Shown one piece after another: positions 41,151 to 60,219 of a stretch of DNA of 64,000 nt. The DNA lies in NCBI RefSeq assembly GCF_000472705.1, contig NZ_KI421453.1, forward strand, positions 372,001-436,000, in the 5' to 3' direction. Made by a program: the position numbers and the translations under genes. The DNA comes from Mesorhizobium erdmanii USDA 3471. GTDB lineage: Bacteria; Pseudomonadota; Alphaproteobacteria; Rhizobiales; Rhizobiaceae. The notes beneath the pieces were generated by a model. It was not told where the DNA came from, ran no database searches, and saw nothing but the letters and a program-made list of their open reading frames with translations. Positions within the stretch are counted from its first letter, which is position 1, and each line of letters opens with the position of its first letter.

Positions 41151-41172
41151 GCAGGGCCGAGTGGAAGCGCCG

Positions 41173-44100
41173 ATGACGCGTTGGCTGCTGCGGATATTCA
41201 GCATGATCGCGCTGGCCGGTTTTTCGGCGGCAGTGTGGTTTGCCGGACCTCTGATCCGTTTCGCCGATAGCCGTCCGCTCGGGCCTGCCTGGCTGCGTGC
41301 CGCAATCATCTGCGTGATCGTGGCCGCCGTGGCGCTCTTCTACGGATTGCGTTTCTGGCGGATGCACAAGGCGCAGCAGGCGCTGGAGACCGCCGTCGCC
41401 CGCAACGACGACAGGAATGAGGACTCGCAGGTGCTCGAGGCGCGCATGAACGAGGCGATCGCCGCGCTCAAACGGTCGAGCGGCAAACGCAACTTCCTCT
41501 ATGAGATTCCCTGGTACATCATCATCGGTCCGCCCGGCGCGGGTAAGACGACAGCACTGGTCAATTCGGGCCTGAATTTTCCGCTGGCCGGTTCGGGCGA
41601 TGCCCAGCCAGTCGCCGGCGTCGGCGGAACGCGCGCCTGCGACTGGTGGTTTACCGACCAGGCCGTGATGATCGACACCGCCGGACGCTACACGACGCAG
41701 GATTCCAATGCCGAGAGCGACAAGAAGAGCTGGCTCGCCTTCCTGTCGCTGCTCAAGACATACCGCACACGCCAACCGATAAACGGCGTCATCCTGGCCA
41801 TCAGCCTTGCCGATCTCATCGGGCTCGACGATCAGCAGCTTGACGCTCATGTCGTCGATATCCGCAGTCGCCTGCGGGAAATCCACGAGACGCTGAAAAT
41901 CCAGTTTCCGGTGTATCTGCTCTTCACCAAGGCCGATCTTGTTTCCGGGTTCATGGACTATTTCGGCGCTTTCGACGAGCCGCGCCGGCGCAAGGTCTGG
42001 GGCGCGACATTCCAGACCAGCGATCGCACCAAGAACATGGCGGCCGAGGCTCCGGCCGAATTCGATGCGCTGGCAAGACGCCTGGTCGAGGAGTTGCCCG
42101 ACCGGCTTCAGGAAGAGGCCGACCCGGCCGCGCGCATATCCGTCTTTGGCTTTCCGGCGCAGTTTAGCGCGTTGAGGGGCCGCGTTGCGCATTTTATCGC
42201 CGGCCTGTTCGATCCAGCCCGCAGCCAGGTGAATGTCAGCCTGCGCGGACTCTATTTCTCCTCAGGCACGCAAGAGGGAACCCCAATAGATCAGGTGTTG
42301 GGTGCGATCGGCCGAAGCTTCGGCGGCAATTCCCGGGCCCATATGTCCCGAACCGGCAAAAGCTTCTTCTTGCATGATCTGCTGACGGGCGTCATTTTTG
42401 CCGAATCCGGATGGGTCTCCTACGACAAATCGGCTGTAAGACGTGCGGCGATCGCCAGATTTGCAGGACTTTGCGCCATCGCGTTGATCGCGGCGGCGGC
42501 CCTTGGCACCCTGGCCCTGAGCTTCACGGCCAACAGGTCGCTGATAGCCTCCACCACGCAGGCCATGGGCCAGTATCGAACGACGGCGGACGCGCTGCTC
42601 GGGAGTACCGAGGTCACCGATGTCGACCTCGAAAACGTCATTGGCCCACTTGACCAGTTGCGCGATCTGCCGGCCGGATTCGAGACCGGCGGCGTGCCGA
42701 CACCAATCGAGGAGACGTTCGGCCTCAGCCAGCGGGAGAGACTGCTTTCGGCGTCCAAGGCGGCTTACCGGCAGGCGCTGGAACGGATGTTGCGATCGCG
42801 CCTGCTGATCCAGGCCGAGCGGACCATCCAGGCCAAGATGGCCGATCCCGGCGCGCTCTACGAGCCGTTGAAAATCTACCTGATGCTCGGCGGCAAGGCG
42901 CCGAAGGTCGACGACGCGTTGATCGTTTCCTGGATGAAGCAGGATTGGGAACAAAACCGCTATCCAGGCGAAAACAACCGCGCAGGACGCGAGCAGCTCG
43001 AAAAGCACCTGCGCGCCATGCTTGCCCTGGACGATGCCTATGATCCGGTTTTCGAACTGAACCAGCCGCTGATCCAAGCCGCCCAGCGGACGCTTGGGCG
43101 GATGAGCCTTGCCGATCGCGCCTCCGCATCGATCAAGTCGGCGGTCTATGCGGCAGCGCTGGAGGATTTTTCCGTGTCCGTGAAAGGCGGACCGGAAGCG
43201 CAACTGTTGTTCGAGCGTGTCGATGGTGGCGACCTGTCGGGCCTTCGTGTTCCCGGCCTTTATACCTGGGCCGGCTTCAACCATTTCTATCTCGGACAGC
43301 TGTCTCGCATTGCGCAGACGCTCGTCGACGACCAGTGGGTAGTTGGCGGCGGCGGCGAGCAGGGCGGCATCGATCAGGAGTTGCCGAAGCTCGGCCCCGA
43401 ACTTCTCGACCGCTATGGGAAAGAATTCGCTCCGGCTTGGAACAGCGTTCTCGACGCGTTGAAATTCAAGCCGATGCTGAAGGACAAGCCGCACTATATC
43501 GCGCTTTCCGCCGTCGCCTCGCCGACCTCTCCGATCGAACAGCTGTTTAGCGCGATCGCCGACGAAACAGCCCTGACGCAAAACGCTGCGTCCAGCAAGG
43601 ACTCAGGCACCGGGGTTGAAGGAGGCCCGGCTCAAGGCCAGTCACCCGACGCCGCGAGCATGGCCAAGGGCCTGGCTCGCATCGGCATTCAAATCGCCAC
43701 CGGGAAATCGCAAAGCCGTGCGGGCACAGGGACAGCAGCAGCGCAAAACCAGAATCCCGGGGCCAACATCGAAGCGCAGTTCAGATCATTCCGGGCCTTG
43801 GTGGGCGGTCCTGCCGGACATCGCCCGATCGATGCCTTGACCCAGAATTTTCGCGATATCTACCAGAGCCTGCAAATGGCGACCGACGTGCCTTCGCAGA
43901 CGGAACGGGTCAATGCCAATCTGCAGCTGCAGATAGCCACCCTTCGGGCCAACGTCTCGCGTCTGCCGAAGCAGCTCGCCAGAATGGTCAATGCGACGGC
44001 GGACGAGTTCGAAGGCAACGTCACGGAAACCTCGGTGGCGAATTTGAACCAGATGCTCGACCAGGCGGTCACGGCTCCTTGCGAAGCGGCGGTCAACGGC

Positions 44101-44736
44101 CGTTATCCTTTCGCCGGCACTAGTGCCGAGGACATGGCGATGGCGGATTTCGCGAGACTGTTCGCACCGGGCGGACTGATGGATCGGTTCTTCGCGCAGA
44201 ACCTCGCGTCGCTGATCGACATGACCGGCCAGGACTGGAGCTGGAAGCAGGATGCGCGCTTCGGGCGCGACCTGTCGAAATCGACACTGAAAGACTTCCA
44301 GCTCGCGGCCGAAATCCGCAGCGCCTTTTTTCCCCAGGGCGGTTCGACGCCTTCGGTGAGCATTACCTTCACGCCGTTCTCATTGCATGGCGATGCCGAT
44401 GCGGCGATACTCGATGTGGATGGCCAGACCGTCCAGAGCAACCAGGCAGGCAACGCACCAAGCATCGTGACCTGGCCGAGCGGAGCGACCTCCGGATCCG
44501 CCAGTCTGAGCCTGACGCCGGAGATGCCAGGCCGCGAATCCACCATCAAGTTCGAAGGGCCGTGGGCGCTGAAGCGGCTCATGGACAAGGCTGCCATCAC
44601 CGGCACCGACGGCAATGTCGAAGCGCGCTTCGTGATCGGTGGGCGCGACGTCGCCTATACGATCCAGACGGGTTCCGGTCCCAGCCCCTTCCTGCTTCCG
44701 GCATTGTCCGGTTTCAGTTGTCCGAAGGCGTTTTGA
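41173..44736 (+). CDS. T6SS inner-membrane protein TssM (copy 2)
   Basis: Second TssM of about 1187 residues. Two N-terminal transmembrane helices, a cytoplasmic domain with Walker A GPPGAGKTT (about 119) and the FLSLLKTYRTRQPINGVI region, a third helix (about 426-452), and a periplasmic part ending in the IcmF C-terminal domain (FAPGGLMDRFFAQNL, then VTWPSGATSGSASL). Full length, with an intact Walker A motif, so not a relic. A GTG at 41161 could add four residues. It follows tssL2 by about 20 bp and precedes pppA by 159 bp. Confidence 0.94.
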   Translation: MTRWLLRIFSMIALAGFSAAVWFAGPLIRFADSRPLGPAWLRAAIICVIVAAVALFYGLRFWRMHKAQQALETAVARNDDRNEDSQVLEARMNEAIAALKRSSGKRNFLYEIPWYIIIGPPGAGKTTALVNSGLNFPLAGSGDAQPVAGVGGTRACDWWFTDQAVMIDTAGRYTTQDSNAESDKKSWLAFLSLLKTYRTRQPINGVILAISLADLIGLDDQQLDAHVVDIRSRLREIHETLKIQFPVYLLFTKADLVSGFMDYFGAFDEPRRRKVWGATFQTSDRTKNMAAEAPAEFDALARRLVEELPDRLQEEADPAARISVFGFPAQFSALRGRVAHFIAGLFDPARSQVNVSLRGLYFSSGTQEGTPIDQVLGAIGRSFGGNSRAHMSRTGKSFFLHDLLTGVIFAESGWVSYDKSAVRRAAIARFAGLCAIALIAAAALGTLALSFTANRSLIASTTQAMGQYRTTADALLGSTEVTDVDLENVIGPLDQLRDLPAGFETGGVPTPIEETFGLSQRERLLSASKAAYRQALERMLRSRLLIQAERTIQAKMADPGALYEPLKIYLMLGGKAPKVDDALIVSWMKQDWEQNRYPGENNRAGREQLEKHLRAMLALDDAYDPVFELNQPLIQAAQRTLGRMSLADRASASIKSAVYAAALEDFSVSVKGGPEAQLLFERVDGGDLSGLRVPGLYTWAGFNHFYLGQLSRIAQTLVDDQWVVGGGGEQGGIDQELPKLGPELLDRYGKEFAPAWNSVLDALKFKPMLKDKPHYIALSAVASPTSPIEQLFSAIADETALTQNAASSKDSGTGVEGGPAQGQSPDAASMAKGLARIGIQIATGKSQSRAGTGTAAAQNQNPGANIEAQFRSFRALVGGPAGHRPIDALTQNFRDIYQSLQMATDVPSQTERVNANLQLQIATLRANVSRLPKQLARMVNATADEFEGNVTETSVANLNQMLDQAVTAPCEAAVNGRYPFAGTSAEDMAMADFARLFAPGGLMDRFFAQNLASLIDMTGQDWSWKQDARFGRDLSKSTLKDFQLAAEIRSAFFPQGGSTPSVSITFTPFSLHGDADAAILDVDGQTVQSNQAGNAPSIVTWPSGATSGSASLSLTPEMPGRESTIKFEGPWALKRLMDKAAITGTDGNVEARFVIGGRDVAYTIQTGSGPSPFLLPALSGFSCPKAF

Positions 44737-44895
44737 GATGGGCTTCGAGCTTCCCCTAGCGGTGGCGCCAGGCGTGGGCCTCAGCCGCCCGGACCTTAAT
44801 TTCGATACTCTAATGGTCGAGCCTGTGGCAGACTGCCGTGAGCCGGCGCCCGGGAGTGCGCCGCAGAGGACGCTTGAGAAGCGTTTGGTGGCAAA

Positions 44896-45675
44896 TTGAA
44901 CGATGTCGCCCTTCCCTTTGACAGCTTCGGCGTGAGCCACAGAGGCTGTGTCCGCGAGGTCAACGAAGACAATTACCTGCTCGAGCCACGAACCGGGCTT
45001 TGGGTGGTGGCCGACGGAATGGGGGGGCATGATGCCGGAGAGGTCGCCTCTGCCAGCATTGTCGACCATCTGGCCACGATCGGCATCGCAAGCTCTGCTC
45101 CGGATCTGCGGGCGCGCTTCGAGGACAGGCTGAGCCGGGCCAATGCCGAAATCCGCAGGATATCGGAATCTCGCGGCATCACCATCGGCTCCACGGTCGC
45201 CGCACTGTTGGCGATGGATGGGCGATTTGCCTGCCTGTGGGCTGGCGACAGCCGGGTCTACCTGATCCGGAATGCCTCGATCTCGCAGATTTCGAAAGAC
45301 CACACCGAAGTGCAGGAACTGCTGGATCGAGGCATGATCAGCGCGGCCGAGGCGCTCACCTGGCCACGCCGCAATGTCATCACGCATGCGGTCGGCGTCA
45401 GCGACGAATTCGTCATCGACTTCCAGCAAGGCGAGCTGATGCCGGGTGACATTTTCGTCTTGAGCACCGATGGGCTGACTGCGCATGTCACCGATGCCGA
45501 AATCGAGGCGGCGGTGATGTCGGCAACGCCTCAGGCGGCCTGTGAAAATCTTTTGGAGACGGTGCTGGCACGAGGCGGAACGGACAATGTCACCATCGTG
45601 CTGGTGAAGATCGGAAACGGGCGCAATGGACAATCGCCCCACCCTGATCTGTCCAGGGCGGAGGGCCGAGGCTGA
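44896..45675 (+). CDS. pppA: PP2C-type Ser/Thr phosphatase PppA
   Basis: PP2C-family phosphatase of 259 residues that removes threonine phosphates placed by PpkA on Fha, resetting T6SS activity. Metal-binding motifs: CVREVNEDNYL, WVVADGMGGHDAGE, WAGDSRVYLI, VLSTDGLT and GTDNVTIVLV. No ATG lies near the domain start; the frame is closed upstream at 44875, leaving TTG 44896 as the best start with a GGTGG just before it (GTG 44932 would truncate the first strand). Separate from TagF here. Its stop overlaps the ppkA start (TGATG). Confidence 0.92.
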   Translation: MNDVALPFDSFGVSHRGCVREVNEDNYLLEPRTGLWVVADGMGGHDAGEVASASIVDHLATIGIASSAPDLRARFEDRLSRANAEIRRISESRGITIGSTVAALLAMDGRFACLWAGDSRVYLIRNASISQISKDHTEVQELLDRGMISAAEALTWPRRNVITHAVGVSDEFVIDFQQGELMPGDIFVLSTDGLTAHVTDAEIEAAVMSATPQAACENLLETVLARGGTDNVTIVLVKIGNGRNGQSPHPDLSRAEGRG

Positions 45676-48245
45676 TGAGCGCCGACGACAAGACGCGAAT
45701 ATCGCCGCAAGTGGCCAACACCGCGGTCGGCACGCAGCTCAGCGGCATCTACGAGCTCGACGAGCGGATCGCGTTCGGCGGCATGGGTGAGGTCTACCGT
45801 GGCCACAACATCCAGACCGGAGACCATGTCGCGATCAAGATCGTGCTGCCCGAATTTGCCCGCGACCAGACGATCCTGTCCCTGTTCCGCAAGGAAGCCT
45901 CGATCCTCAACCATTTGTCCCATGACGCGGTCGTGCGCTACCACGTGTTCACCATCGATCCCGGGATCGGCCGTCCCTATCTCGCCATGGAATTCGTCGA
46001 CGGCGAGTCGCTGTTCGACATCATGCGACGTGGCCCGATGCCGGCGGAAGCGGTGCGCAGGCTCTGCCATCGCCTGGCATCCGGCCTGAGTGCCGTGCAT
46101 CAGGCGGGCGCGATCCATCGCGACCTCTCGCCCGACAACATCATCCTGCCGGGAGGCCGGGTCGACCGCGCAAAGATCATCGATTTCGGCATCGCACGAT
46201 CGGCGACCGTGGGCGGGGAGACGCTGATCGGCGGAAAGTTCGCGGGCAAATACAACTACGTTTCACCCGAACAGCTCGGACTGTACAGCGGCGACGTCAG
46301 TGAACAGTCCGATATCTACAGCCTTGGGCTGGTGTTGGCCGCCGCCCTGCGCGGCAAGCCGATCGACATGAGCGGATCACAGTTCGAGATCATCGAAAAG
46401 CGCCGGACGGTGCCTGATCTGTCCGACATCGACGACGATTTTCGTGACATTGTCGAAGCCATGCTGCAACCGGATCCGCGAGACCGGCCAGCCAGCATGG
46501 CGGATATCGCCAGGATGACGCGCGACGAAGAGGAAGGAACAACGCCGCCGACGTCGATCACCCCCCGCGACCGGCCGGGTTTGCCGCGAGCCGGGCACAC
46601 CCTTGTCCCGGATCCCAGGGCCCAGCCCCAGCCCTCCAATGTCGCGGGACACGGCGCGCCGCCGGCAACCGGCCCCGGCGAACAACGCTTCGTCCCGCAT
46701 GTCCGACCCGCGCATCTGTCCGAACCGCTGCCTCAGGCCCGCCCCGGCCCGCCGCCCACGGCCACCCGTAATGTCCCCGGAAAACCCGCAAAGACCCGAA
46801 CCATCGCGATTGCTGCCTTGGCGACGCTGGCTGTCGCCTCGGGCGCGGGCCTGTATTTGAGCGGCTTGATGACGCCTGCGACGCCGACTGCCGGCAAGAC
46901 ATCGCTTTCCGCGCCCGAGCCATCGAAGCCGGTAGTGGAGAAATCAAATCCGGTCTCAACGGACAAAGTCGCGAGCGCCTCCGAGCCGGCAAAACCAGTT
47001 CCGCCCGTGCAGCCGGAGCCCAGCGTCCCGCCGGCTGAAGAACAGCCAGATGCCACGGCGGTTCAAAAGCCGCCGGCGGCCAAGCCTGCCGAACCGCAGG
47101 CCGAGGAACCGCCGAAGCCGCCAGCAACGGCAGCGCAGCCGCAAACAGAGGCGAGCGCGCCACCGGCCAGAAGCCAGCCGGATGTCAAGACCGTGCAGAC
47201 ACCGGAGCCGGCGAAACCCATCCTTCCACCGCAAACCGTGGAACCGCTGAAGCCATCGACAACGGCCACTCAGTCGTCTGAAAAAACATCGCCGGCACCC
47301 CAGCCGAATGCGATGGCCAGCAACAGTCAAATGTCGGCTTCGCCGCCCGACGCGGGCGCTCCGACCACGCCAGCCGAGAAGGTCTCGACGCCGCCGGCCC
47401 AGCCGAAGACTGTGGAGAGCCAAAAGCCCGAGCCTCGGATCAGCCCGCCGGCGGCGCCCAAGGCGACCCCGCCGGCGCCCAAACCCACTGCCAGCCCGAC
47501 GAATGCCGCCAGTGCCGAGGGCCAAAACGCCTCGTCAGCGCCGGCGAAGCAGCCGGACCAACCCGTCGTAGCCTTGAACGTGCCCAAACCAGCGATCCCA
47601 CCGGTCGTCGACGACGTCGCGCAACGTGTCTCCTGGGTTCGCGACTTCGGCGGCGGCGATTGTTTCTATGCGACCATGACGTCGGCGACCGACACGGCCG
47701 CCGCGATCGAAGGGTTTGGCACAGCGGTCCAGCCATTCGAACGGATGCTCGGCGATTTCCAGGCAAAATTCCATGTCGAGCCGGACATCAGCGTCCGCCT
47801 CATCGAGCCGAGCCAATGCGAAGTCACCAACTTCCTGCGCTTTCTGGGGCAGAGCGCGGCCGACAAGCCACAGCTTGTTCTCGACCGGACATCGGTGCCG
47901 AACGGCACGCCGATCAGCGGCACGCTGGTGACGCGTGGCGGGCTCATGTCCAGCGTGCTGCTGATCGATCACAAAGGCATGGTGTTCAATCTCGACGACC
48001 GCATCGTCGTACAACCCAACAAGGCCACCTTCAGCATTCCGATTGGCCTCGGCGCCGCCGACAAGGCCGCCGGAAAGGCGGTGCCGCAGCTCATCATGGT
48101 GATCACGGGTCCTCAGGATATTCAGTCGGCCGCCTTCTCGACGCCAACGCCTGCCTCAGTGCTGCTGCCCAAAATTCTCGAAGAAATCGAGACCGACGGC
48201 TCTCAATTTTCAGCCACCGCCAAGTATTTCCGGCTCGGCGGATAG
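45675..48245 (+). CDS. ppkA: membrane Ser/Thr kinase PpkA with periplasmic domain
   Basis: Protein of 856 residues. Kinase domain at about 25-285: glycine loop IAFGGMGEVY, AIKIVL lysine (about 55), HRDLSPDN (about 147), DFG (about 170) and SPEQ. Juxtamembrane linker rich in Pro, a transmembrane helix (about 376-398, IAALATLAVASGAGLYL), a Pro/Ala/Glu-rich periplasmic stalk of roughly 250 residues, and a C-terminal domain of about 200 residues (RVSWVRDFGGGDCFYA) I do not recognise. Unlike Pseudomonas PpkA, it lacks an obvious von Willebrand domain. It would sense a periplasmic signal and phosphorylate an Fha protein. Confidence 0.93.
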   Translation: MSADDKTRISPQVANTAVGTQLSGIYELDERIAFGGMGEVYRGHNIQTGDHVAIKIVLPEFARDQTILSLFRKEASILNHLSHDAVVRYHVFTIDPGIGRPYLAMEFVDGESLFDIMRRGPMPAEAVRRLCHRLASGLSAVHQAGAIHRDLSPDNIILPGGRVDRAKIIDFGIARSATVGGETLIGGKFAGKYNYVSPEQLGLYSGDVSEQSDIYSLGLVLAAALRGKPIDMSGSQFEIIEKRRTVPDLSDIDDDFRDIVEAMLQPDPRDRPASMADIARMTRDEEEGTTPPTSITPRDRPGLPRAGHTLVPDPRAQPQPSNVAGHGAPPATGPGEQRFVPHVRPAHLSEPLPQARPGPPPTATRNVPGKPAKTRTIAIAALATLAVASGAGLYLSGLMTPATPTAGKTSLSAPEPSKPVVEKSNPVSTDKVASASEPAKPVPPVQPEPSVPPAEEQPDATAVQKPPAAKPAEPQAEEPPKPPATAAQPQTEASAPPARSQPDVKTVQTPEPAKPILPPQTVEPLKPSTTATQSSEKTSPAPQPNAMASNSQMSASPPDAGAPTTPAEKVSTPPAQPKTVESQKPEPRISPPAAPKATPPAPKPTASPTNAASAEGQNASSAPAKQPDQPVVALNVPKPAIPPVVDDVAQRVSWVRDFGGGDCFYATMTSATDTAAAIEGFGTAVQPFERMLGDFQAKFHVEPDISVRLIEPSQCEVTNFLRFLGQSAADKPQLVLDRTSVPNGTPISGTLVTRGGLMSSVLLIDHKGMVFNLDDRIVVQPNKATFSIPIGLGAADKAAGKAVPQLIMVITGPQDIQSAAFSTPTPASVLLPKILEEIETDGSQFSATAKYFRLGG

Positions 48246-48353: not shown

Positions 48354-48764
48354 ATGAAGCTTGCGGTCATGGCGGGAGCGGCAGTGCTGTCCGTACTGTC
48401 GTGCGGCCAAGCGCGCGCCGAATTCACGGTCTGCAACCAGACGCTCGACGTCGTCAACCTGGCCGTCGGCCAGAAGGTCGACAATGCGGACCAGACCGAT
48501 GGCTGGTGGACAATCGGCGCAAATCAATGCGTGAACGTCATCCGCGAGGAACTGACGAACCGCTACATCTACATCTATGCGACGGACGTGTTTGGCCATG
48601 CGATCCTGACAGGCGCGACCGAGATGTGCATCGAGCGGCGGCGTTTTTCGATCCGCGGCATCGACGAGTGCTGGCAGCGTGGCCATATCGCGGCGCAATT
48701 CCTCGAAGTCGATACGCTTGAACAGGTGCGGTGGACCTTCTTCCTGACCGGAAGCAACCCGTGA
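48354..48764 (+). CDS. DUF1036 exported protein
   Basis: Protein of 136 residues with an N-terminal signal peptide (MKLAVMAGAAVLSVLS) cleaved near ARAE, so periplasmic or secreted. The mature part matches DUF1036: FTVCNQTLDVVNLAVGQ, WWTIGANQCVNVI, CIERRRF. Cysteines are positioned for disulphides. An in-frame ATG at 48258 would place the signal peptide internally, so 48354 is preferred. It lies between ppkA and the cell-wall hydrolase gene, whose GTG start overlaps its stop. Role in secretion unknown. Confidence 0.82.
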   Translation: MKLAVMAGAAVLSVLSCGQARAEFTVCNQTLDVVNLAVGQKVDNADQTDGWWTIGANQCVNVIREELTNRYIYIYATDVFGHAILTGATEMCIERRRFSIRGIDECWQRGHIAAQFLEVDTLEQVRWTFFLTGSNP

Positions 48765-51178
48765 CGCACAGCATCGACACGAGCTTCAAGCAGAAGAAGC
48801 AGGCGCGCGCCGCGCTGCGCCGGCGAACGCTTTGGCGCAGGCTCATTGCCGGTTTCGCTTTCATGGTCCTGCTTTCCATCGCCGCGGGCTTCTACCTCAC
48901 CGCGGACTATTGGTCGTTCGGTGACGAAGACCAGGACTTGCACGCGGTCGAAGGCGCGGACGATATGCCGGCCGATGCATCCGTCTATGTGCCTGCCATT
49001 ATCGACCTGGCGGGGGATCCGATGTGGATCACGCTTGCCCCCGATGCGGACACGGCAAGCAAGGGCCATTCGGTAGCGCGCCCGGCCGAGCTCGACAGTT
49101 CCGGCGCCTCGCCGCAGATCGAGATTCTCTCCGACGTAATGCTGAGTGCCAGCGAAAAGTTCATGACGACGATCCCGTCGACGCAGGAGGACTTCGCGTT
49201 CTTCCAGGCACAGCGGCGGACCGCTCCGACTTCCGCGGCTGCCGTACCCAACGAGCAGGCCTCTCCGCCTGCCCCGGCGGCGGCACCGGACGACCAGCAG
49301 GGCGACTTGAATAATGACCTTCAGGCGGCGCCCGATGCGAGCGAGGGTCCGGCCGGTTCGGCGCCGAAGCCGGATGCCGACGACCCGGAGGCCGGCTGGG
49401 GGGAGACCATCGATCAGGGCGAGGCAGCGCTGCCCACCTTCAAGAAAACCCAGATCGAGAACAATACGACCGTCGCAACCGTGACCAGCGAGTACCAGCG
49501 CTTCGAGGCGACCGGGGACACTTTCGTCAAGATCCTCAACGACCGCAGCCTGGAGAGCGTCGCCGTCGACGCGCATTTCTCGGCCGATGACGCCAAGCTT
49601 GCGAGCGAGGCGCTCAAGAGCCTGTTCAACCTCGACGGCCTGGAGCCGGGTTATGTCGTTGCCATGCGCGGATTCCGGCCGAACCGCGAGACGACGACGA
49701 TGTCGCTCATGCAGGTTTCGATTTACGCCAAGAATGTCTTTGTCGGCACGCTGACGCGCAATACAGCGGGCGCCTTCGTGTCAGGCGTCGACCCTTGGGT
49801 GCGCGAGGATCTGTTCAACTATTCCGGTGCCGATCAAGGAGGGCTCAAACGGCAATACCGGCTGCTCGACGCGATTTATTCGACGGCTGCGCGTAACAAG
49901 GTTCCGACCGGCGTCATTGGCGAGGCGATCATGTACCTGTCGCGAGGACAGGACCTCGACGCTTTCGCCAGCGAGGACCAGCGCCTGGTGCTGATCTACT
50001 CACAGACGCCGCGCGGCAAGGACGAGACATCCGGGCGGGTGCTTTATGTCGGCGTCCAGGGCGGTGAAAAGACCATCGACTGTTTCGTCTTCCAGCAGAG
50101 CGACGGCCAGTTCGCCTGCGTCACCGGCAATGACGAGGTGCACTCGCTGACAGCAGCCAACGGCATGGTCACGCCGGTGAACGGGGTCATGACCTCGACC
50201 TTCGGCCCGCGCAAGCACCCGATCCTCGGCGTCGTCCGTATCCACAAGGGCGTCGATTGGGCAGCCCCTGTCGGCACGCCGATCATGGCGGCTTTCGACG
50301 GCGAAATCAGCTTCCAGGGCGATGGCGGCAGCTATGGCAATCTGGTGAAGATTTCGCATGCGAACGGGCGCGAGACGCGCTACGCGCATATGCAAAAATT
50401 CGCCATTGCGAGCGGCGTCGGCACCAAGGTGAAGGCCGGCGACGTCATCGGCTATATCGGCACCACCGGGCTTTCGACCGGCCCGCACCTGCATTTCGAA
50501 CTCTACCAGAACGGCGAGGCGATCGATCCGTTGGGGACCGTCACCACGGTCGCCACCTATGATACCGGCAATTCCGGTAATTCCGGCGATGTTGCCGTCG
50601 AAACGCTCACCGAACGTATCGTTCATGTCGAAAGCGGTGGCAGTGCTCGCGCCAAGAACCCGAATTCTTCGGCGACCGGCGCCGGCCAGTTCATAACCAA
50701 GACCTGGATCCGGATGATGAATACCTATCGCCCGGACCTTGCACGATCACTGTCGACCGCCGACCTGCTGGCTCTGCGCTACGACGCCACCATTTCGCGT
50801 GAGATGGTGCGCAATCTGGCGCGCGAAGGCGAGGCCTATCTGCGGGCGCGCGGTCACCAGATCACAGCCGGCCGGCTCTATCTCTGTCATTTCCTGGGAA
50901 TGGAAGGCGCGCATCAGGTGCTGGCGGCGCCAGGGTCGGCGCAACTGAGCGCCGTGCTGGGGTCGGCCGTCATCCAGGCCAACCCGTTTCTCACCGGCAA
51001 GACAGCCAGCTACGTGGTAGACTGGGCCGAAAGGAAGATGGGCCAGAAGCTGAGCCGTGTGGCCACCGACGCCAGCCCACCGGTGACGACCACGGAGATC
51101 CGCCAGACATCGCCGGAGTTCGAAAAATACAAGCAGGCCGTTACCGCCCTCGTCAGCTCGATTCAGAATACGCTTTGA
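48761..51178 (+). CDS. membrane-anchored M23 peptidase with lysozyme-like domain
   Basis: Putative two-activity peptidoglycan hydrolase of 805 residues. A basic N-terminus and a transmembrane helix (about 27-48) anchor it in the inner membrane. A long linker and a central region lead to an M23 endopeptidase domain (about 477-590; TFGPRKHP, HKGVDWAAPVG, GPHLHFELY, with the HxxxD and HxH zinc ligands), then a lysozyme/SLT-like domain (about 618-745; HVESGGSARAKNPNSSATG with the likely catalytic Glu). GTG 48761 overlaps the DUF1036 stop and has GGAAG upstream. A plausible role is opening the wall for the T6SS membrane complex; an effector role is less likely given the anchor. Confidence 0.88.
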   Translation: MTHSIDTSFKQKKQARAALRRRTLWRRLIAGFAFMVLLSIAAGFYLTADYWSFGDEDQDLHAVEGADDMPADASVYVPAIIDLAGDPMWITLAPDADTASKGHSVARPAELDSSGASPQIEILSDVMLSASEKFMTTIPSTQEDFAFFQAQRRTAPTSAAAVPNEQASPPAPAAAPDDQQGDLNNDLQAAPDASEGPAGSAPKPDADDPEAGWGETIDQGEAALPTFKKTQIENNTTVATVTSEYQRFEATGDTFVKILNDRSLESVAVDAHFSADDAKLASEALKSLFNLDGLEPGYVVAMRGFRPNRETTTMSLMQVSIYAKNVFVGTLTRNTAGAFVSGVDPWVREDLFNYSGADQGGLKRQYRLLDAIYSTAARNKVPTGVIGEAIMYLSRGQDLDAFASEDQRLVLIYSQTPRGKDETSGRVLYVGVQGGEKTIDCFVFQQSDGQFACVTGNDEVHSLTAANGMVTPVNGVMTSTFGPRKHPILGVVRIHKGVDWAAPVGTPIMAAFDGEISFQGDGGSYGNLVKISHANGRETRYAHMQKFAIASGVGTKVKAGDVIGYIGTTGLSTGPHLHFELYQNGEAIDPLGTVTTVATYDTGNSGNSGDVAVETLTERIVHVESGGSARAKNPNSSATGAGQFITKTWIRMMNTYRPDLARSLSTADLLALRYDATISREMVRNLAREGEAYLRARGHQITAGRLYLCHFLGMEGAHQVLAAPGSAQLSAVLGSAVIQANPFLTGKTASYVVDWAERKMGQKLSRVATDASPPVTTTEIRQTSPEFEKYKQAVTALVSSIQNTL

Positions 51179-51364: not shown

Positions 51365-51736
51365 ATGAAAGCGGTCGCGGTCTTTCTGAGCGGAGTTGTC
51401 CTGGTTTTCCTTGTCGGCTTCGGCGCCGAAGCCGCCGAGCCCGACGCCAAACGCGTCGCTCTGGTGATCGGCAACAGCAACTATGTCCATGCGGTTACCT
51501 TGCCGAACCCCGCCAACGATGCCCGCCTCATCGCATCGACGCTGCGCAATGCCGGCTTCGAAGTGATCGAAGGCGTCGATCAGGACAATGCAGGCATGCA
51601 CGGCCTCATCAGCCGATTTACCGAGCAAGCCTATGACGCCGATCTCGCGGTCATCTTCTATGCCGGTCACGGCATGCAGGTCGACGGCAAGAATTACCTG
51701 ATCCCGGTCGACGCCGATTTGACGTCGCCGGCCTAA
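51365..51736 (+). pseudogene. caspase-fold protease, N-terminal half (split gene)
   Basis: First 123 residues of an exported caspase-family (peptidase C14) protein. The signal peptide (MKAVAVFLSGVVLVFLVGF), RVALVIGNSNY, the LPNPANDARLI stretch and the His motif FYAGHGMQ are intact. The frame stops at TAA 51734-51736, which is the first three bases of a 104-bp palindromic repeat. The rest of the protein, including the catalytic Cys, continues at 51838 in another frame. A GAGGG ribosome binding site precedes the ATG. It is therefore interrupted; see the C-terminal half. Confidence 0.88.
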
Positions 51737-51837
51737 AGCGCGTCGCTCTGAAACGGATTCAGGCGACGCACTTTAAGTCTTTGTTTTGATGCATGTCGTT
51801 ATCCCAAGACCGCTGCACACTTCTGGGCGACATGCAT
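51734..51837. repeat. 104-bp paired-palindrome (RIME-like) element inside caspase gene
   Basis: Two imperfect palindromes, 51734-51775 (TAAAG...CTTTA arms with GCGTCG/CGACGC) and 51789-51837 (ATGCATGTCG / CGACATGCAT), flank a short AGTCTTTGTTTTG spacer. Length and build match the two other 104-bp elements at 54393 and 61859. It resembles the Rhizobium intergenic mosaic elements described in rhizobia. Deleting exactly these 104 bases joins Ala (GCC, 51731-51733) to Tyr (TAT, 51838) in frame. It supplies the stop of the upstream part and the ATG at 51793 of the downstream frame. Confidence 0.85.
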
Positions 51838-53097
51838 TATCTCAAGACCCGGACCATTCAGATCGACGATTTCATGGCTGCGCTGCCGCCCGACCCGGCG
51901 ATCGGCGTCATCATCCTCGATGCCTGCGGCGACAATCCGCTGGCGAGGACGCTGGCGGCCTCACTGCCGAAAAGCCGCTCCACCGCATTGGGTACTGGCC
52001 TGGCGCCGGTCGAAGCGAGATCGGACGGCGTCGGTACCGGCGGCCTGCTGATTGCTTATGCAACGGATCCGGGCGCCATCGCTTTCGACGGCACAGGGGC
52101 CGACAGTCCTTACTCGACGGCGCTCGCCAGGCACCTGACCGAACCCGGCGTCGAAATCCAGAGCGCGCTGACGCGCGTGCGCGGCGAAGTGACCGAAACC
52201 ACGCAAGGTCGCCAGCGGCCATGGCATAACGCATCGCTGGGACGCGAGGTCTTCCTCGGAAAGCCGGTAGCCGCAGCGACGCCGACCGCACCCTCGGCGG
52301 CGGGCGGATCGAACGTGGCAGCGACATCCGCTCCTATCCCTGTCACCAGCGATCCTGCGTCGTGGGAAGTCGAGCAACGGCTTTGGGATGAGGCTTCAAA
52401 GCACAATTCCGGCCCGTTCTACCAAGCCTATCTCGACCAGTTTCCGGACGGCCGCTTCGCCACCGTGGCGCGGCTGAACATCGACGAATTGAACGACCCG
52501 ACGGCTCGAAACCGGCAGGTAGCGGCCCTCGATGCGAACCAGGCGAATGCCAGTTCGGGCTCTGCCATTCCGGCCTCGGTCAGCATTCCGGATGAGGTGA
52601 AGCACACGCCGGGCAGCCAGTTGACGGAAAATGCGATCGGCCTCGATCGCCAGGGTCGCATCGACCTTCAATTGCGCATCGAGGCGCTGGGCAACGAACT
52701 TGGGCGTATCGACGGAAACCTGGGCTCGCAGACCCGTCAGGCGATCGGCGTCTGGCAAGCCGGGAACGGTCTGCCGCAAACCACCTATCTGACCCGCGAA
52801 CAGCTGGCGTTGCTGGTGATCCAGACGGATCCGATGATGGAGGCCGTGCGTGCTAGGTACGCGGCCGATCAAGCCCATGCGTCGCAACCCAAGAAGCAGG
52901 TGGTGCAGAAGGTCCGCGCAATGAGGCCCGTTGCACAAAACCCTCGCAAACAGCAGCAGATCGTCCAGAAACGTCGCACACGCGAGACGGTGGCGTGGCA
53001 GGATGATCCTCCGCCAAGCCGGCGCGGCAACGACTTCCTGACAAGCGCGCTGATTTTCGGCGCCGGTGTGGCCGTCGGAGGCATACTCAAGCACTGA
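51838..53097 (+). pseudogene. caspase-fold protease, C-terminal half with peptidoglycan-binding-like domain
   Basis: Remaining about 420 residues of the split caspase. It begins YLKTRTIQIDDFMAALPPDP and carries the catalytic Cys motif IILDACGDNP, YATDPGAIAFDG and RGEVTETTQGRQRPWHN. Then come a SNNS/FP-G-type repeat (YLDQFPDGRFATVARL), a peptidoglycan-binding-like segment (DGNLGSQTRQAIGVWQAG) and a basic C-terminal tail with a hydrophobic end. An open frame does continue upstream to an ATG at 51793 within the repeat, so a cytoplasmic fragment could be made, but it would lack the His and the signal peptide. Confidence 0.85.
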
Positions 53098-53107
53098 CGG
53101 CCGCGCG

Positions 53108-53644
53108 CTACTGCGTCTTTATCCGCATTTCCACGCGGCGGTTGAGCGGATCGTACGGGTTGGCGCTGCGCGGGTTCTTTTCGCCCATGCCGACCGCGTC
53201 GATGCGGGCTGCCTCGATACCGTTGGCCGTCAGGAAGGCTGCAACCGATTGCGCCCGCCGTTGCGACAGGCCTTCATTGTAGTGCACCGTGCCGGTGGCA
53301 TCGGTGTAGCCTTCGACGACGAAGCTGAAGGTGCTGAGCCGGCTGTCCTTGAGCGCCTTGGCGAACTCGTCGAGTTCAGCCCGCGCGGTGGTATCGAGGG
53401 CGGCCGAATCCAAGCCGAAATTGATCAGCATATCGAGGCTGGATTTTCCGGCCGGCGCGTCCTTAGCCTTGGTCTTGCTCTTGCACTCCTCCTCGGTGCC
53501 GACACAAATTCCGCGCGATTTGCCGAGATCGGCCGCGCCGGCAAAGAACTTCACGATGTCTTCCGATTTCTGAACGGGGTCGGCGGAAGCGTGGGTCGAG
53601 AAAAACACGACCGCCAACACAAAGGCTGAACTGCCCCACTGCAT
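53108..53644 (-). CDS. OmpA family protein
   Basis: Protein of 178 residues. A signal peptide (SSAFVLAVVFFSTHASA) is followed by a short region with two Cys (GICVGTEEECKSK) and an OmpA-like peptidoglycan-binding domain (VVEGYTDATGTVHYNEGLS, LSQRRAQSVAAFL, GEKNPRSANPYDPLNRRVEM). The N-terminal barrel of full OmpA is absent, so it is likely a periplasmic wall-binding protein. ATG 53644 is chosen because AGGAG precedes it and the signal peptide begins there. It converges with the split caspase gene, 10 bp away, suggesting a joint locus. Function unknown. Confidence 0.88.
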   Translation of the reverse strand: MQWGSSAFVLAVVFFSTHASADPVQKSEDIVKFFAGAADLGKSRGICVGTEEECKSKTKAKDAPAGKSSLDMLINFGLDSAALDTTARAELDEFAKALKDSRLSTFSFVVEGYTDATGTVHYNEGLSQRRAQSVAAFLTANGIEAARIDAVGMGEKNPRSANPYDPLNRRVEMRIKTQ

Positions 53645-53815
53645 AGCGGTTACTCCTGTTTGAGCATCCGTTTCGATGATCGCCATCATACCAAACTCCA
53701 AGGCGATTGTCTGTCGATAAACGCTGGAGGCGCGATGAGTGGTGCGACGTCACTTGACCCGAGCCGCGCCTGAGGCTTGAGTGGCCTAAGGCTTCTCGAT
53801 GAAGGCGTGGCGGTC

Positions 53816-54514: not shown

Positions 54515-55759
54515 CTACTTGCAGCCGCCCTGCGCCCATTTCGCAAGCGCCACCTTGAAGCGTGTTCCCAGCGGATGTTGCAGGCGCAAGACAGAGACAT
54601 CGTTGGCGGCGAAATTTTTCGCCTGATCGCACAGACGGGCCTCGTTCCATTCATGGCAGCCGTCGCAGTGCTTGCCCTCCCAGACCGACTTGTCCAATCC
54701 CTCCACGGGACTGAACAGGGGCTTACTCTTGATCAGTTCGGCGATGCTCTTGCCGTCGATTGCCGCATCGCCGAACTCGATCGGATGGTCGAAAAGGATC
54801 GGTGCATCCGAGGCCAGTTTGGGGATTTTCTGGCGCAGCACATCGAGTGCAAGCTGGTCGCCGTTTTGGGCTGTCGCACTTGCCGCGGCGGTGTTGCGCG
54901 CGTCCGAGCCGCCTTCGGCTTGAGGTTCGCTCGCTTCGCCGACGATCAATGGCGCATTGAGATCGACCTTGTGCAAGACGACCTCCGTGGTCAGCGAAAC
55001 GTTGATCCAGGGGCGTTGCTTGCCGGAGGTTGCCTTGAAGACGTCACCGGTCACCCTGTTCATTGCCTCGGTGATCGAGACGTTGGAGGCGCCGATGTGC
55101 TGAAGCAGTGCGGCGGTGAACGGCGAATATTCGCCCGACCCGTCATAGGCGAGTTGATTGGGACTGGCGGCAAAAGCGACGAGCGTGCCGGCGCCGCCAT
55201 TCTCGATCGGGATTTCGGCCAGGCCGCTGCTCGCGCCGTTGCCGCCAGAGGACTTGGCCAGCGCCTTGGCAAGGGGATTGTCGCGGCAAGCATCGAGAAA
55301 CACCAGCCTGATACTGGTCTCGCGCGACATCTGGCGCAAAATGAAATCGACCGACACCGCCTCGAAGTCGAGGGAGGTCTCGTCCTCCAGCGCGGCGTCG
55401 ACCGGCAGCAGGTAGTTCTTGCCCGCAACCTGCAGACCGTGGCCGGCGTAGAAGAACAGCGCGATATCGGCACCGCGTACTTGTTTTGCGAACAGGGCGA
55501 TCGTTGCCTGTGTCTGCGGCTTGGTCAGGTCGAAACCGGAAACCACCTCGAAGTCGAGTTTTTTCAGGCGTTCAGCCATGGCCTGGGCGTCGCGCACCGG
55601 ATTGGCCAGCGGCGCCGCGTGCTGGTACTGGGCGTTGCCGAGGACCAGCGCGACGCGGCGCTCGGCGCTGGCGGCGGTCAAAGTCAGCAACAAGGCGAGC
55701 ACCGCCAGACCAGCGGCGCGAAACAGGCCACTGCCACGGGCGATCAGATCGTGCCTCAC
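54515..55759 (-). CDS. caspase-family protease with C-terminal CxxCH motif
   Basis: Exported caspase-fold (C14) protein of 414 residues. Signal peptide at about 10-28 (LAVLALLLTLTAASA); RRVALVLGNAQY; catalytic His in YAGHGLQ (about 104) and Cys in FLDACRDNP (about 156); QRPWINVSL closes the domain. A linker leads to a C-terminal segment with KHCDGCHEW (about 363-370) and further cysteines, a CxxCH motif of the kind that binds haem c. GTG 55759 has GAGG upstream and places the signal peptide at the N-terminus; earlier in-frame ATGs do not. Lies 7 bp after the YceI-OmpA gene. Confidence 0.85.
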   Translation of the reverse strand: MRHDLIARGSGLFRAAGLAVLALLLTLTAASAERRVALVLGNAQYQHAAPLANPVRDAQAMAERLKKLDFEVVSGFDLTKPQTQATIALFAKQVRGADIALFFYAGHGLQVAGKNYLLPVDAALEDETSLDFEAVSVDFILRQMSRETSIRLVFLDACRDNPLAKALAKSSGGNGASSGLAEIPIENGGAGTLVAFAASPNQLAYDGSGEYSPFTAALLQHIGASNVSITEAMNRVTGDVFKATSGKQRPWINVSLTTEVVLHKVDLNAPLIVGEASEPQAEGGSDARNTAAASATAQNGDQLALDVLRQKIPKLASDAPILFDHPIEFGDAAIDGKSIAELIKSKPLFSPVEGLDKSVWEGKHCDGCHEWNEARLCDQAKNFAANDVSVLRLQHPLGTRFKVALAKWAQGGCK

Positions 55760-55766
55760 CGCAACC

Positions 55767-56861
55767 TCAGAGCTTTGTAGCGGAAAACTCGATCCGCCGA
55801 TTGAGCGCCTTGTTCTTGGGTGTATCGTTGGCGGCAACCGGCCGCTCCTCGCCATAGCCGGTTGCCGTGATCTGCGTGCGAGGGATGCCCGCGGCAACAA
55901 TAGCGTCAGCAACGGCCTGGGCCCGGCGCTCGGACAACTGCTTGTTCGCCTCCGGCGAGCCGTCTGAATCGGTATAACCGGAGACTTCGACTTTCAGGCT
56001 CGGGCATTTTCCGACGACACCTTCGACCTCGGTCAGCAAGGGGCGGCTTTTCGCATCGAGCCGCGCGCTGGCGGGCCGGAAATAGATAGCGCCGGTGCGC
56101 GAGAGCACGGCGAACCTGTTCAGGCATTCCTCGTCGCTGAAGTTCGCCTTGGCCGCATCTGTGGCAACCGGGCCGACACCGGCCGAACTCGCCGCGGCGG
56201 CCTGGGTGGCGGCCGGCTTGCTGCCATCGGCGGTGAAGACGAAATCGAACGAGACCGACGCGGTGGGCACGATGTTGGTGACGTTGGCGGCCTGCTGCAG
56301 CTTGTCGACGTTCGGCAACAGGCCGAAGTCCTCGACGTGGACAGCGACCGGAGCCTCCGAAGCAACCGACACCATTGTGTCGCTGATCATGGTGACGACG
56401 ACGCTGGCCTCAAGATCCTTGTCGACACCATGCAGATTGAGGCGGAACGGCAGCGTCGCCTTCACCCTGCGCTTTGTCGCGAGATCGGCGAATGCGGCGG
56501 GATCCACTTTCGCCGTCAGCTCGGCGGTCGGGTACTTGAATGTTTCGAAGAACAGGAACCGCATGCGAACGTTGCGTAGGTCGACGCCGGTATCGACCGA
56601 ATTGAGATCGAACGTGACCTTGGCATCCCCCGCCGCGCTAAGCGTGCCCGTGATGTTCCTGATCTTGTTGGTCTCGACGATCGTGTTCTTCTTGACCGAC
56701 TGATAGGTGATCACCGAAGCGGCGGGATCGAGCGTCCAGCTCGGCGCGGCGCTGGCGGCTTGCGATCCGAGCAGCAGCAACAACGCAACGATCAGGCCGA
56801 GAGCTCTTGCAGCATGGCCTCTCGACATTGTCTTCCACCAGAATGCGACGACTTCGAACAT
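55767..56861 (-). CDS. YceI-like / OmpA fusion protein
   Basis: Protein of 364 residues. A signal peptide (GLIVALLLLLGSQAASA) is followed by a YceI-like domain (about 37-215: WTLDPAASVITYQSVKKN, GTLSAAGDAKVTFDLNSVDTG, FFETFKYPTAEL) and a C-terminal OmpA-like domain (VEVSGYTDSDGSPEANKQL, LSERRAQAVADAIV, NRRIEFSATKL). YceI proteins bind isoprenoid-type lipids in a lipocalin-like barrel; OmpA domains bind peptidoglycan. ATG 56861 is preferred because AGGGG precedes it. Probably a wall-bound periplasmic protein; in one operon with two caspase genes. Confidence 0.86.
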   Translation of the reverse strand: MFEVVAFWWKTMSRGHAARALGLIVALLLLLGSQAASAAPSWTLDPAASVITYQSVKKNTIVETNKIRNITGTLSAAGDAKVTFDLNSVDTGVDLRNVRMRFLFFETFKYPTAELTAKVDPAAFADLATKRRVKATLPFRLNLHGVDKDLEASVVVTMISDTMVSVASEAPVAVHVEDFGLLPNVDKLQQAANVTNIVPTASVSFDFVFTADGSKPAATQAAAASSAGVGPVATDAAKANFSDEECLNRFAVLSRTGAIYFRPASARLDAKSRPLLTEVEGVVGKCPSLKVEVSGYTDSDGSPEANKQLSERRAQAVADAIVAAGIPRTQITATGYGEERPVAANDTPKNKALNRRIEFSATKL

Positions 56862-57320: not shown

Positions 57321-59870
57321 TCAAAACAAGTCCCGACGGGGATTGGCTTGCTCCCAGACCGCCCTGGCCGTCTTGACCAGTTGGTCGTCGAGCGAGCCGT
57401 TCGCCGCGATCTTCGACTTGAGTTCGCCGCGCAACTGCTTCAGCGCCGCCGTTTTCGCCTTGACTCCGAATTTTGTCAGCGTCGCCTCGGCGCCCGGCAA
57501 CTCGTTGCGAAGATCGAGAGCAACCGCGAAGGCCAGGAACCGCACCGCTATCGCCTGGTCGGCCTTGTCGCCCTTCTGCATTTCCAGAGCCGCGCGATCA
57601 TATGCGGCGGACTGATCGCCGCGTGCGGTGGCCAGCTCGAACAGTCTTTGCGCTTCATCGAGGTTTTGTCCCATGCCGACACCGTCGCGATACATGCGGG
57701 CGAGGCTAGCCGGAGCGTAAGGCTGGCCGAGATCCATGGCCTTCTGGAAAAGCGCTTGAGCCTGCCGAGGATCTTTCTCGATACCCACGCCGGCCAGATA
57801 GTTGCGACCGAGCAGGTTCATTGAGTACATGTCCTGCCGCTCGACACCTGCCTTCAGAAAGGCCACGGCTCGAGCCGGATCGGCGGGCACGCCATTGCGA
57901 CCTTCCGTGAAGATCGCGGCAAGATCGTTCATGGCGTAGGTATGGCCCATGGCCGCCGCCTTGAGCAGGAGGTCAAGCCCTTTGCCGGTGTCGCGCTCGA
58001 CGCCATAGCCGTTGAACAAGGCACGTCCCCACGACGTCATCCCATAGGGATCGCCCTTGTCGGACGCCGCCGCATAGAAGCCATTGCCCCGCTTGCGGTC
58101 GACAGCCATTCCCGTTCCTGTCGCGTTTAGGTAGCCGAGTTCGAACACGGCGCGGACGTGGCCCTTGTCGGCTGCCGCCTGGATGGCTTTTTTTGCTTCC
58201 TCGATCTTGCCGGCGGCAAGCAGCGCCCGGCCCAGTTCGTAGCGGAAGCGGGCGACATCGGGATAGGCAGTGACCGCCGCCTCGCAGGCCTTCACGGCTT
58301 CAGCGCCGATTTCATTCGGCAGCAGGCCGGGGACGACGCCTTGCAGGTCGAGAGGCTCACCGGCGGCCTGGTCGCAGGGATCGACGCTTGGTGACAGCTT
58401 CATGGTGGCGGGCTTGGACGAATTGCTGTCGGCCCGGATCTCGAAGCCGACCTCGACCGGCGCGGCCGCACCGATCTGGGGTTCGTAGCGCAGTTGGTCG
58501 ACCTCATCCGCCATCAGGCTCGATTCCGGCGACAAGGCACGATCCGGCAGGGACAGTGTACCCGTTGCCGGATAGCTCGCGAGTTTCAGGCTGACCGCGG
58601 GGTCCCTGGTCGGGAAATCCAGCTTGAGCGGAACCGGGCCGACCCCGACCGGAACGCTGATCTCGCGGTCTTCGATCGCCTCGGCGGCGCCGGTGATATG
58701 GATGCCCCTCTCCAGCACCTGCTGTTTCTGTTCGGTCTCGAGCGAGGCGACGATCTGCTCGCCCTGGGCGCCCTCGCCGTTCTTGACACGGAACACCATG
58801 ATGCCCTGGGCTTCGCCGCCCCAATTGTCATGGGTGGCGTAGGCCAGCATGTCGACCTCCTCGGCCGCAGCGACGCCCTTGGGCACATCCATCTTCAGGC
58901 GCGGCAGGTCCTTGCCGTCGATCTGTTCGCCAACCGCCACAGCCTTGCCGTCCAGCAGCAGGCGCCCAAGTGCCGGCGGCCTTTCGATGCTGACGGTGAT
59001 CGATCCGCCATCGACATCGACCGGTTCCGGCAAGTCGAGGGCAACCGGCCCCACACCTGACGGCACGACCTTCTCAAGAACCGGCGGCAACGAGGGCCGG
59101 TTGGCGCGGCGCATCAGGACAACTTCGTCGATGAGTGAGGAGTTTTCCCAGGGAACCTGCTTGCCTTCGGTGGCCTCGACCACATCGCGGCGCACCGCGG
59201 CCATGACCGTGCGTATCTCCTGGTTCGGCGCCAGCGCCCGACGAGAGAATGCGGATGAAAACGGGCTGAGGTCTCCCGCCCCGTCGTAGGCGACCGCCCC
59301 TGGCTCGGTGGCAAAGGCAATCAGCGTGTTCAGCGAGCTTTTGACCTGCGCGAGGCCGGTGTTGCCCGCCGTGATCAGTTGGTCCCTCAACCAATAATCC
59401 TTGCGCGGAAAGGGATTGTTGCGACAGGCATCGAGGATGATCACCTGGATCTTCGATTTCGCGCGCAATTGCTGCAGGACATCGTCCAGCTTGACCGCCT
59501 GCACCTCTATGTCCGCGGCATTCTTCAGCGAGGCATCCACGGGGATCAGGAAATTCTCGCCGCCGATCTGAAAGCCATGGCCGGAATAGTAGACGACGGA
59601 CAGATCGGCACCGTCCGCCGCCGCCAGATAGTTGCGGAATTGCTCCTCGAACTGCAGCTTGGTGAGATCCTTGGCAACGAATACCTCGAAGCCGGCCAGC
59701 CGAAACGTCTTCGACACGTCCTCGGCATCCTTGTCGGGATTCTTGAGAACGGGAATCTCCCGGTACTCGGAATTGCCGATCACCAGGGCGACCCTTCGAT
59801 CGGCCGACGCCTCGAAGGTCGTGAAGGCGGCCACGAGGAAAACCGCGATCAATCCGCAAAGTCGGAGCAT
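57321..59870 (-). CDS. caspase-family protease with Sel1-like repeats
   Basis: Exported protein of 849 residues. Signal peptide (GLIAVFLVAAFTTFEASA), caspase domain about 23-260 with RRVALVIGNSEY, His in YYSGHGFQ (about 96) and Cys in ILDACRNNPF (about 147), then a middle region of beta-type sequence in two similar parts (VGPVALDLPEPVDVDGGS and VGPVPLKLDFPTRDPAVS), and a C-terminal series of Sel1-like repeats (about 560-790: AYPDVARFRYELGRALL, MTSWGRALFNGYGVERD, SMNLLGRNYLAGVGIEKD). ATG 59870 has GAGG upstream. First gene of the four-gene minus-strand caspase operon. Confidence 0.88.
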   Translation of the reverse strand: MLRLCGLIAVFLVAAFTTFEASADRRVALVIGNSEYREIPVLKNPDKDAEDVSKTFRLAGFEVFVAKDLTKLQFEEQFRNYLAAADGADLSVVYYSGHGFQIGGENFLIPVDASLKNAADIEVQAVKLDDVLQQLRAKSKIQVIILDACRNNPFPRKDYWLRDQLITAGNTGLAQVKSSLNTLIAFATEPGAVAYDGAGDLSPFSSAFSRRALAPNQEIRTVMAAVRRDVVEATEGKQVPWENSSLIDEVVLMRRANRPSLPPVLEKVVPSGVGPVALDLPEPVDVDGGSITVSIERPPALGRLLLDGKAVAVGEQIDGKDLPRLKMDVPKGVAAAEEVDMLAYATHDNWGGEAQGIMVFRVKNGEGAQGEQIVASLETEQKQQVLERGIHITGAAEAIEDREISVPVGVGPVPLKLDFPTRDPAVSLKLASYPATGTLSLPDRALSPESSLMADEVDQLRYEPQIGAAAPVEVGFEIRADSNSSKPATMKLSPSVDPCDQAAGEPLDLQGVVPGLLPNEIGAEAVKACEAAVTAYPDVARFRYELGRALLAAGKIEEAKKAIQAAADKGHVRAVFELGYLNATGTGMAVDRKRGNGFYAAASDKGDPYGMTSWGRALFNGYGVERDTGKGLDLLLKAAAMGHTYAMNDLAAIFTEGRNGVPADPARAVAFLKAGVERQDMYSMNLLGRNYLAGVGIEKDPRQAQALFQKAMDLGQPYAPASLARMYRDGVGMGQNLDEAQRLFELATARGDQSAAYDRAALEMQKGDKADQAIAVRFLAFAVALDLRNELPGAEATLTKFGVKAKTAALKQLRGELKSKIAANGSLDDQLVKTARAVWEQANPRRDLF

Positions 59871-60219
59871 GGCAACCGCCTCAACCGCCGCGACCTGACG
59901 ACCACAAGCTCCCCAGATTGCGGTATCAAGGTCTGTTGAAGAACTCACAATCCGCCGAAACAGCAACAGAAAAAGACTGAAAAACCGCCCCGGCCGCAGG
60001 CACCTTCCTCATCCCGATGTGTAAACTACCTCAGAGCCGAACCATCCGCAATGAGTGTCGACCTGTCCCGGGGTGGCTGTCTGGATCCGATGCATCCGCC
60101 AGGTTCCAATCCAGCGCGGGTGCGTCAGAGACGCCTGTCTATCCTGCGCGACGTCCTTGGCTTCCGGCAAGAGTATGACTGGCGCACACCACGACCCGGT
60201 TGATGCCCCGACGGGAACT
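59871..60219. other. 349-bp gap without a gene, upstream of the caspase operon
   Basis: Contains the presumed promoter of the minus-strand caspase operon (near 59870-60010) and the downstream end of the minus-strand enolase transcript. The part nearest the caspase gene is AT-richer. No convincing coding frame, repeat or strong terminator hairpin seen. Confidence 0.4.

Follow-up and report, generated by a model that had tools for sequence, protein, structure and literature searches.

The window, that is, the whole 64,000-nucleotide stretch of Mesorhizobium erdmanii USDA 3471 DNA analysed here, contains a caspase gene interrupted by a short palindromic repeat. The features of the locus, in window coordinates, are:

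51365..51736, plus strand: ORF1, the N-terminal caspase half of 123 aa, starting at ATG 51365 and holding the His motif FYAGHGMQ
51734..51735, no strand: left copy of the TA target; relatives have a single TA, and original and duplicate copy are indistinguishable
51734..51775, plus strand: left hairpin, similar over its outer 30 nt to the transposase-proximal end of TAAAGC-type IS630 elements
51736..51837, plus strand: 102-bp core of a two-hairpin MITE of RIME/CIR type, assigned from its fold and from the 42 or more related places found genome-wide
51756..51760, plus strand: GATTC, a GANTC (CcrM) site that starts at nt 23 of the element and partly overlaps the loop of hairpin 1
51786 (about)..51839, plus strand: right hairpin, with outer end TAATGCATGTCGC on the minus strand and holding ATG 51793
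51793..53097, plus strand: ORF2, the C-terminal part of 434 codons, with the motif LDACGDNP, for which relatives have LDACRDNP, and a PG_binding_1 domain
51838..51839, no strand: right copy of the TA target; relatives have a single TA

ORF1 aligns to positions 1-101 of the 233 in the Pfam profile PF00656 (E 2.4e-21) and ORF2 to positions 100-232 of Peptidase_C14, so that one domain is spread across both ORFs. An initial reading of the sequence alone (hereafter the sequence-only reading) had assigned the His and Cys motifs to two different frames, and its coordinates and frames are borne out. The same holds for its proposal that the element provides the stop of the first half and the start of the second: the opening three bases of the element form the TAA of ORF1 (51734-51736), ATG 51793 lies within the element, and about 15 initial codons of ORF2 derive from it. 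A bacterial caspase would be expected to carry a His-Cys dyad on a single chain with the sequence DACR, whereas here the dyad is distributed over two ORFs and the R is replaced by G. The N-terminus of ORF1 has a stretch that resembles a signal peptide, as judged by eye. The closest named relatives for the caspase gene are Mesorhizobium (M. carmichaelinearum, M. loti DSM 2626, M. qingshengii and others), at 85-86% protein identity. Within the genome the split gene has 11 matches in all.

A type VI secretion gene coding for an IcmF-like protein (1191 aa) and then a Ser/Thr protein kinase gene (856 aa) occupy positions 41161-48245. The split caspase may be part of a secretion-linked cluster since it sits just downstream of these two genes. 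Directly upstream of it (48731-51178) is a gene for an 815-aa protein with a Peptidase_M23 domain and directly downstream, on the minus strand (53108-53701), an OmpA-domain gene. Two further caspase-domain genes with whole domains follow on the minus strand (54518-55912 and 57324-59966), the second having additional Sel1 and TPR repeats. These two intact genes may make the loss of the split one tolerable.

The inserted repeat and its target

Orthologous loci were retrieved from genome contigs with ORF2 alone as query, and loci carrying the insertion were thus not selected against. The element is absent from all 56 loci listed, which read straight through the site. Where the window has GCC TA AAGC...GCAT TA TCTC, the relatives have, with few exceptions, GCC or GCT followed directly by TATCTC, and the closest ones, among those translated on the correct strand, read TSPAYLKT across it. 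From the chosen start the frame is open over 531-551 codons in 50 of the 56 loci; the empty site with a continuous frame of about 540 codons anticipated by the sequence-only reading therefore exists. The six other orthologues are L109, which ends at a contig end, L110-L113, with 441-443 codons, and L116, with 154 codons; the shortened frames of L110-L113 and L116 indicate that the caspase gene was altered by other routes in other species. On this comparison the element is an insertion in the host lineage, because the orthologous loci run through the site element-free. An assembly error is an unlikely source, as the genome has no second copy of the element that is more than 93% identical.

Comparison of filled and empty sites shows that the single TA of the relatives is doubled in the window, leaving a core of 102 bp. 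The view of the locus as a gene split or inactivated by a RIME-like element stands as far as the species-specific repeat was inserted, divides the gene and supplies a stop and a start, but the target duplication, said not to be visible, had been overlooked, and the mode of mobility, the IS630 link and the CcrM site did not enter into it.

Both palindromes attributed earlier to the element are present (inverted repeats I2 and I6). The 106-nt sequence folds with z-scores of -5.5 as DNA and -5.3 as RNA, and none of 200 shuffles was as good in either case. Its terminal inverted repeats TAAAGCGCGTCGC and TAATGCATGTCGC are imperfect (10/13 identical), and each arm consists of one end followed by its own inverted copy, giving four end-like segments within 106 bp. 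The element is short, lacks a transposase and is multicopy, as expected of a MITE: at least 42 related places occur in the genome with E 1.4e-12 or better, 40 of 90 first-look candidates having been scored. No Rfam family reaches its gathering score within the window. Beyond the genome, BLAST matches are found in 442 plasmid records, all from Rhizobium, Sinorhizobium, Ensifer, Agrobacterium or Neorhizobium, and a class-wide search gave one weak 24-base match in 189 other genomes, a sample in which the share of the element's own family is uncounted. Loci L123, L127, L128 and L129 of the host genome match the right-hand hairpin without the left one and are perhaps a separate repeat or truncated copies.

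Copy ends were read in 41 loci representing 43 distinct places, with both ends recognisable in 33. The base preceding the left end is C in 26 copies and T in 7, hence always a pyrimidine, and the base following the right end (n=42) is G in 33, A in 8 and T in one, the lone T being that of the window copy. The left end starts with TA in 28/33 copies; the right end finishes with TA in 27/42 and with CA in 9. Copies with clear ends thus occupy Y-TA...TA-R sites. Seven filled sites were compared with relatives (window, L220, L221, L095, L010, L096 and L223). One TA has become two in three of them, namely the window, L220 (versus L257 and L260) and L221 (versus L258 and L261), which is the target-site duplication of a MITE; at L095 (versus L082/L090) a CTAG target is evident and the right TA copy is altered.

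These sites bear on whether the repeat belongs with the single-strand elements of REP/RAYT or IS200 type, which would have been placed beside a fixed target that is not duplicated, leaving two TAs by coincidence. The two hairpins and the absence of long terminal repeats would suit such an element and, judged from a single site, CCTA plus a 104-bp insert describes the sequence formally just as well. This reading is nonetheless highly improbable when all copies are considered: Y precedes 33/33 and R follows 41/42 ends, in both orientations, TA stands at both ends, three filled/empty pairs show both TAs, and the ends are homologous to those of DDE-type IS630 elements.

IS630 ends and the CcrM site at nucleotide 23

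A weight matrix built from the copy ends was scanned over 30 IS5-family and 30 IS630-family loci. Two IS630 elements from other genomes of the genus, L176 (1047 bp) and L179 (1046 bp), carry the ends as an inverted pair with TAAAGCGTGTCGCGATT at both, flanked by C TA...TA G and C TA...TA A, respectively. A near copy, 95% identical, on a Mesorhizobium plasmid is annotated as IS630 family transposase. A transposase search in the family gave some match in 159 of 297 genomes and, combined with end pairing, further end-matched IS630 elements. The comparison of ends took in 20 of 23 non-redundant elements. The copy consensus is identical at 19-25/30 positions to the 8 ends of TAAAGC type (19-24/30 for the left end of the window copy) and at 10-11/13 for the right end, versus 12-19/30 (left) and 5-8/13 (right) for 12 elements of TAGAGC type. 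All 8 TAAAGC-type ends score above every one of 20,000 shuffles that preserve composition and the first TA, and the ends of the repeat are in this respect common to autonomous IS630 elements. Counting against an IS630 origin, IS630 ends lack palindromic arms, unlike the four end-like segments of the element.

A different mover to be weighed is a transposase of IS5/IS427 type, similar to IS711, which would also duplicate the TA of YTAR. The IS711 family differs from IS630, and the Bru-RS palindromic repeats, about the same size as the element, serve IS711 as target, which distinguishes that system from the present one. In Brucella, IS711 duplicates TA at YTAR, as seen here, and is associated with Bru-RS according to PMC2266754. 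Among 30 IS5-family loci from 61 genomes, taken from more than 100 IS5 matches, no convincing RIME-like end pair flanks a transposase; the two weak pairings are L148 and L130, where in L130 one end belongs to an adjacent IS630 copy. Since these 30 loci gave no such pair and the matching ends were found on IS630 elements instead, mobilisation by an IS5-type enzyme is very unlikely.

We favour the reading that the element is a RIME/CIR-type MITE which, in all likelihood, is moved in trans by an IS630 clade with ends TAAAGC..GTCGC; from the end similarity we infer the transposase of this clade specifically. The transposase would mobilise the element in trans and join it to the target at a TA, normally inside YTAR and here in CTAT, the TA being duplicated on insertion. 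The elements of this clade of the IS630 family (PF13358) share with the repeat their ends, the TA target and GANTC at nt 23; they differ in being autonomous, about 1,050 bp long and with two overlapping transposase ORFs. The proposed helper is currently not in the host, since its genome has fragments of one IS630-type transposase only. The repeat family therefore seems immobile in this host for now, although repeats can drop out of a 50-contig draft.

GANTC starts at nt 23 in 23 of the 33 genome copies with a left end. The IS630 loci L160-L219 (n=60) gave an end pair in 36 and none in 24, and 32 pairs were accepted, L162 and L213 with a lower-ranked or tied pair. GANTC begins at nt 23 of one end in 32/32 accepted pairs; the four dropped as implausible (L164, L183, L185 and L199) do not have it there, and including them gives 32/36. 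The GANTC-bearing end is the transposase-proximal one in all 29 elements that could be oriented. Clustering at 85% leaves 23 elements, all with GANTC at nt 23, the middle base being A in 11, T in 8 and G in 4. Because this base varies, it is the recognition sequence rather than one word that is kept. Scanned by offset without the pairing step, the 60 loci give 40 matches at 23, none at 19-22 and 24-27, and one at 28; seven of the 28 unpaired or set-aside loci match at 23. GANTC was found at 23 in 4 of 8 further IS630 loci inside the class and in none of 20 outside it, which belong to other subfamilies and include several weak end pairs.

Additional GANTC sites of the IS630 elements occur at positions 30-36 (15) and 50-61 (22), and 4 in the 3' ends, none of these at 23. 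The interiors hold 4 in 21,000 bp versus 72 expected from composition. GANTC is scarce in the host region, with 63 in the 64-kb window and 457 in 393 kb of the 56 loci, so that a fair interior expectation is about 21-24 and the shortage still some five-fold. Common descent is a possible reason for the site at nt 23, whereas the varied middle base argues for its being under selection. The repeat is best read as having inherited its CcrM motif from the transposon end. Among the best end pairs of IS5 loci, obtained for 26/30 and many of them doubtful, none has GANTC at nt 23, one has it at 21 and one at 22. In the IS5-family loci L144 and L147, one end of the best pair carries GANTC at nt 21/44 and 22/45, respectively; GANTC/CcrM sites near transposase promoters may thus extend beyond IS630 to some IS5 elements.

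Stop codons and the fate of the caspase

Four plasmid copies were chosen for an annotated gene overlapping the match and hence give no frequency estimate. In each of them gene and element share precisely the final codon, the stop being formed by the outer three bases of the element (TAA in three, TAG in L221). The 33 two-ended copies of the host have 66 sides, 28 of them bordered by an open frame 140 codons or longer. In 17 cases, the caspase itself included, the outer codon of the element closes the best frame (13 TAA, 3 TGA, 1 TAG), versus 8 and 3 for the other two frames (p 0.003). Pfam matched a family for 9 of the 10 frames scanned among these 17. Frames ending in this way are present on both sides of four copies: L033 and L043, where both are Pfam-supported genes, L039, with one of two supported, and L051. 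Elements adjoining genes often provide the gene's stop codon.

Both ends of the element begin with TAA read inward, so that an insertion placing the TA at codon positions 1 and 2 would create a stop. This would be neutral in a TAR stop codon, where the stop is regenerated because the YTAR target includes TAR, and truncating in a TAY codon; the TA target of the caspase was part of a Tyr codon. The second half would then at best start from the ATG inside the element, and as this has no evident ribosome-binding site the caspase gene is most likely lost.

DACRDN is conserved in 55/55 relatives with the motif (L116 is shortened before it), versus DACGDN in the window. The change of DACR to DACG and the lost start context of the second half suggest that the split caspase is probably inactive. 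That both ORFs form a working split caspase, the element giving a new start and the halves being made and assembling, would accord with ORF2 being open over 434 codons and with a negative test for relaxed selection (private non-synonymous/synonymous changes 25/25 in the window versus 91/108 in 11 pooled relatives, Fisher p 0.64), a result for which a recent insertion or limited power of the test may account. A functional pair is unlikely given the R to G change at a position invariant in the motif-bearing relatives, the location of the His and Cys residues on separate chains, and, both judged by eye, the lack of a Shine-Dalgarno-like stretch before ATG 51793 and of a signal peptide in the second half.

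Relation to known repeats and significance

RIME1 is about 106 bp long and has two large palindromes. The element, compared by description, resembles RIME in its length of about 106 bp, its two palindromes, its multicopy state and its rhizobial host, and differs in that the window copy lies inside a gene. RIME stands for Rhizobium-specific intergenic mosaic element (Osteras et al. 1995, via PMC2573895 and PMC2245857) and CIR for CcrM-associated intergenic repeat (Chen and Shapiro 2003, via PMC2229807). By the description in PMC2229807, CIR is about 110 bp long, with two arms, a linker and a GANTC located at, or partly within, the loop of one arm, an architecture that the element has in its folds and in GATTC 51756-51760. 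CIR is described there as never intragenic, whereas the window copy splits a caspase gene; the same source states that the CIR mobility mechanism needs more information and calls the role of the GANTC motif undetermined. MITEs of IS630 are already known from RUP of Streptococcus pneumoniae, a 107-bp MITE thought to be mobilised by the IS630-Spn1 transposase, with a TA target and end similarity (PMC2229807). It belongs to another phylum, and the account of RUP in PMC2229807 reports no methylation motif. In titles and abstract starts of the open-access papers searched we recognised no link of RIME, CIR or Bru-RS to IS630, a prior description elsewhere being possible, and no report of GANTC at a constant position of IS630 ends. 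The novelty would lie in the combination of palindromic arms and an apparently inherited CcrM site in an IS630-type MITE, not in IS630 MITEs as such.

Dam couples the jumping of IS10 to the passage of the replication fork. A joint reading, which we put forward tentatively and hold somewhat less probable than its opposite, is that CcrM methylation at nt 23 of the transposase-proximal end gates transposition of TA[A/G]AGC-type IS630 elements in Alphaproteobacteria, coupling their jumps to the replication fork. Beyond this proposed gating, RIME and CIR would be non-autonomous descendants for which the CcrM site is an inherited switch and whose terminal TAA makes insertion into a stop codon harmless.

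Catalogues of RIME and CIR in rhizobia and in relatives of Caulobacter go back decades. The match to IS630 ends and the CcrM site at the identical nucleotide provide a concrete candidate transposase for them and a testable explanation of the GANTC motif. The landing rule, a YTAR target with a regenerated stop, would explain why these repeats gather at gene ends and seldom split genes; in the split caspase the rule would be seen through its exception.
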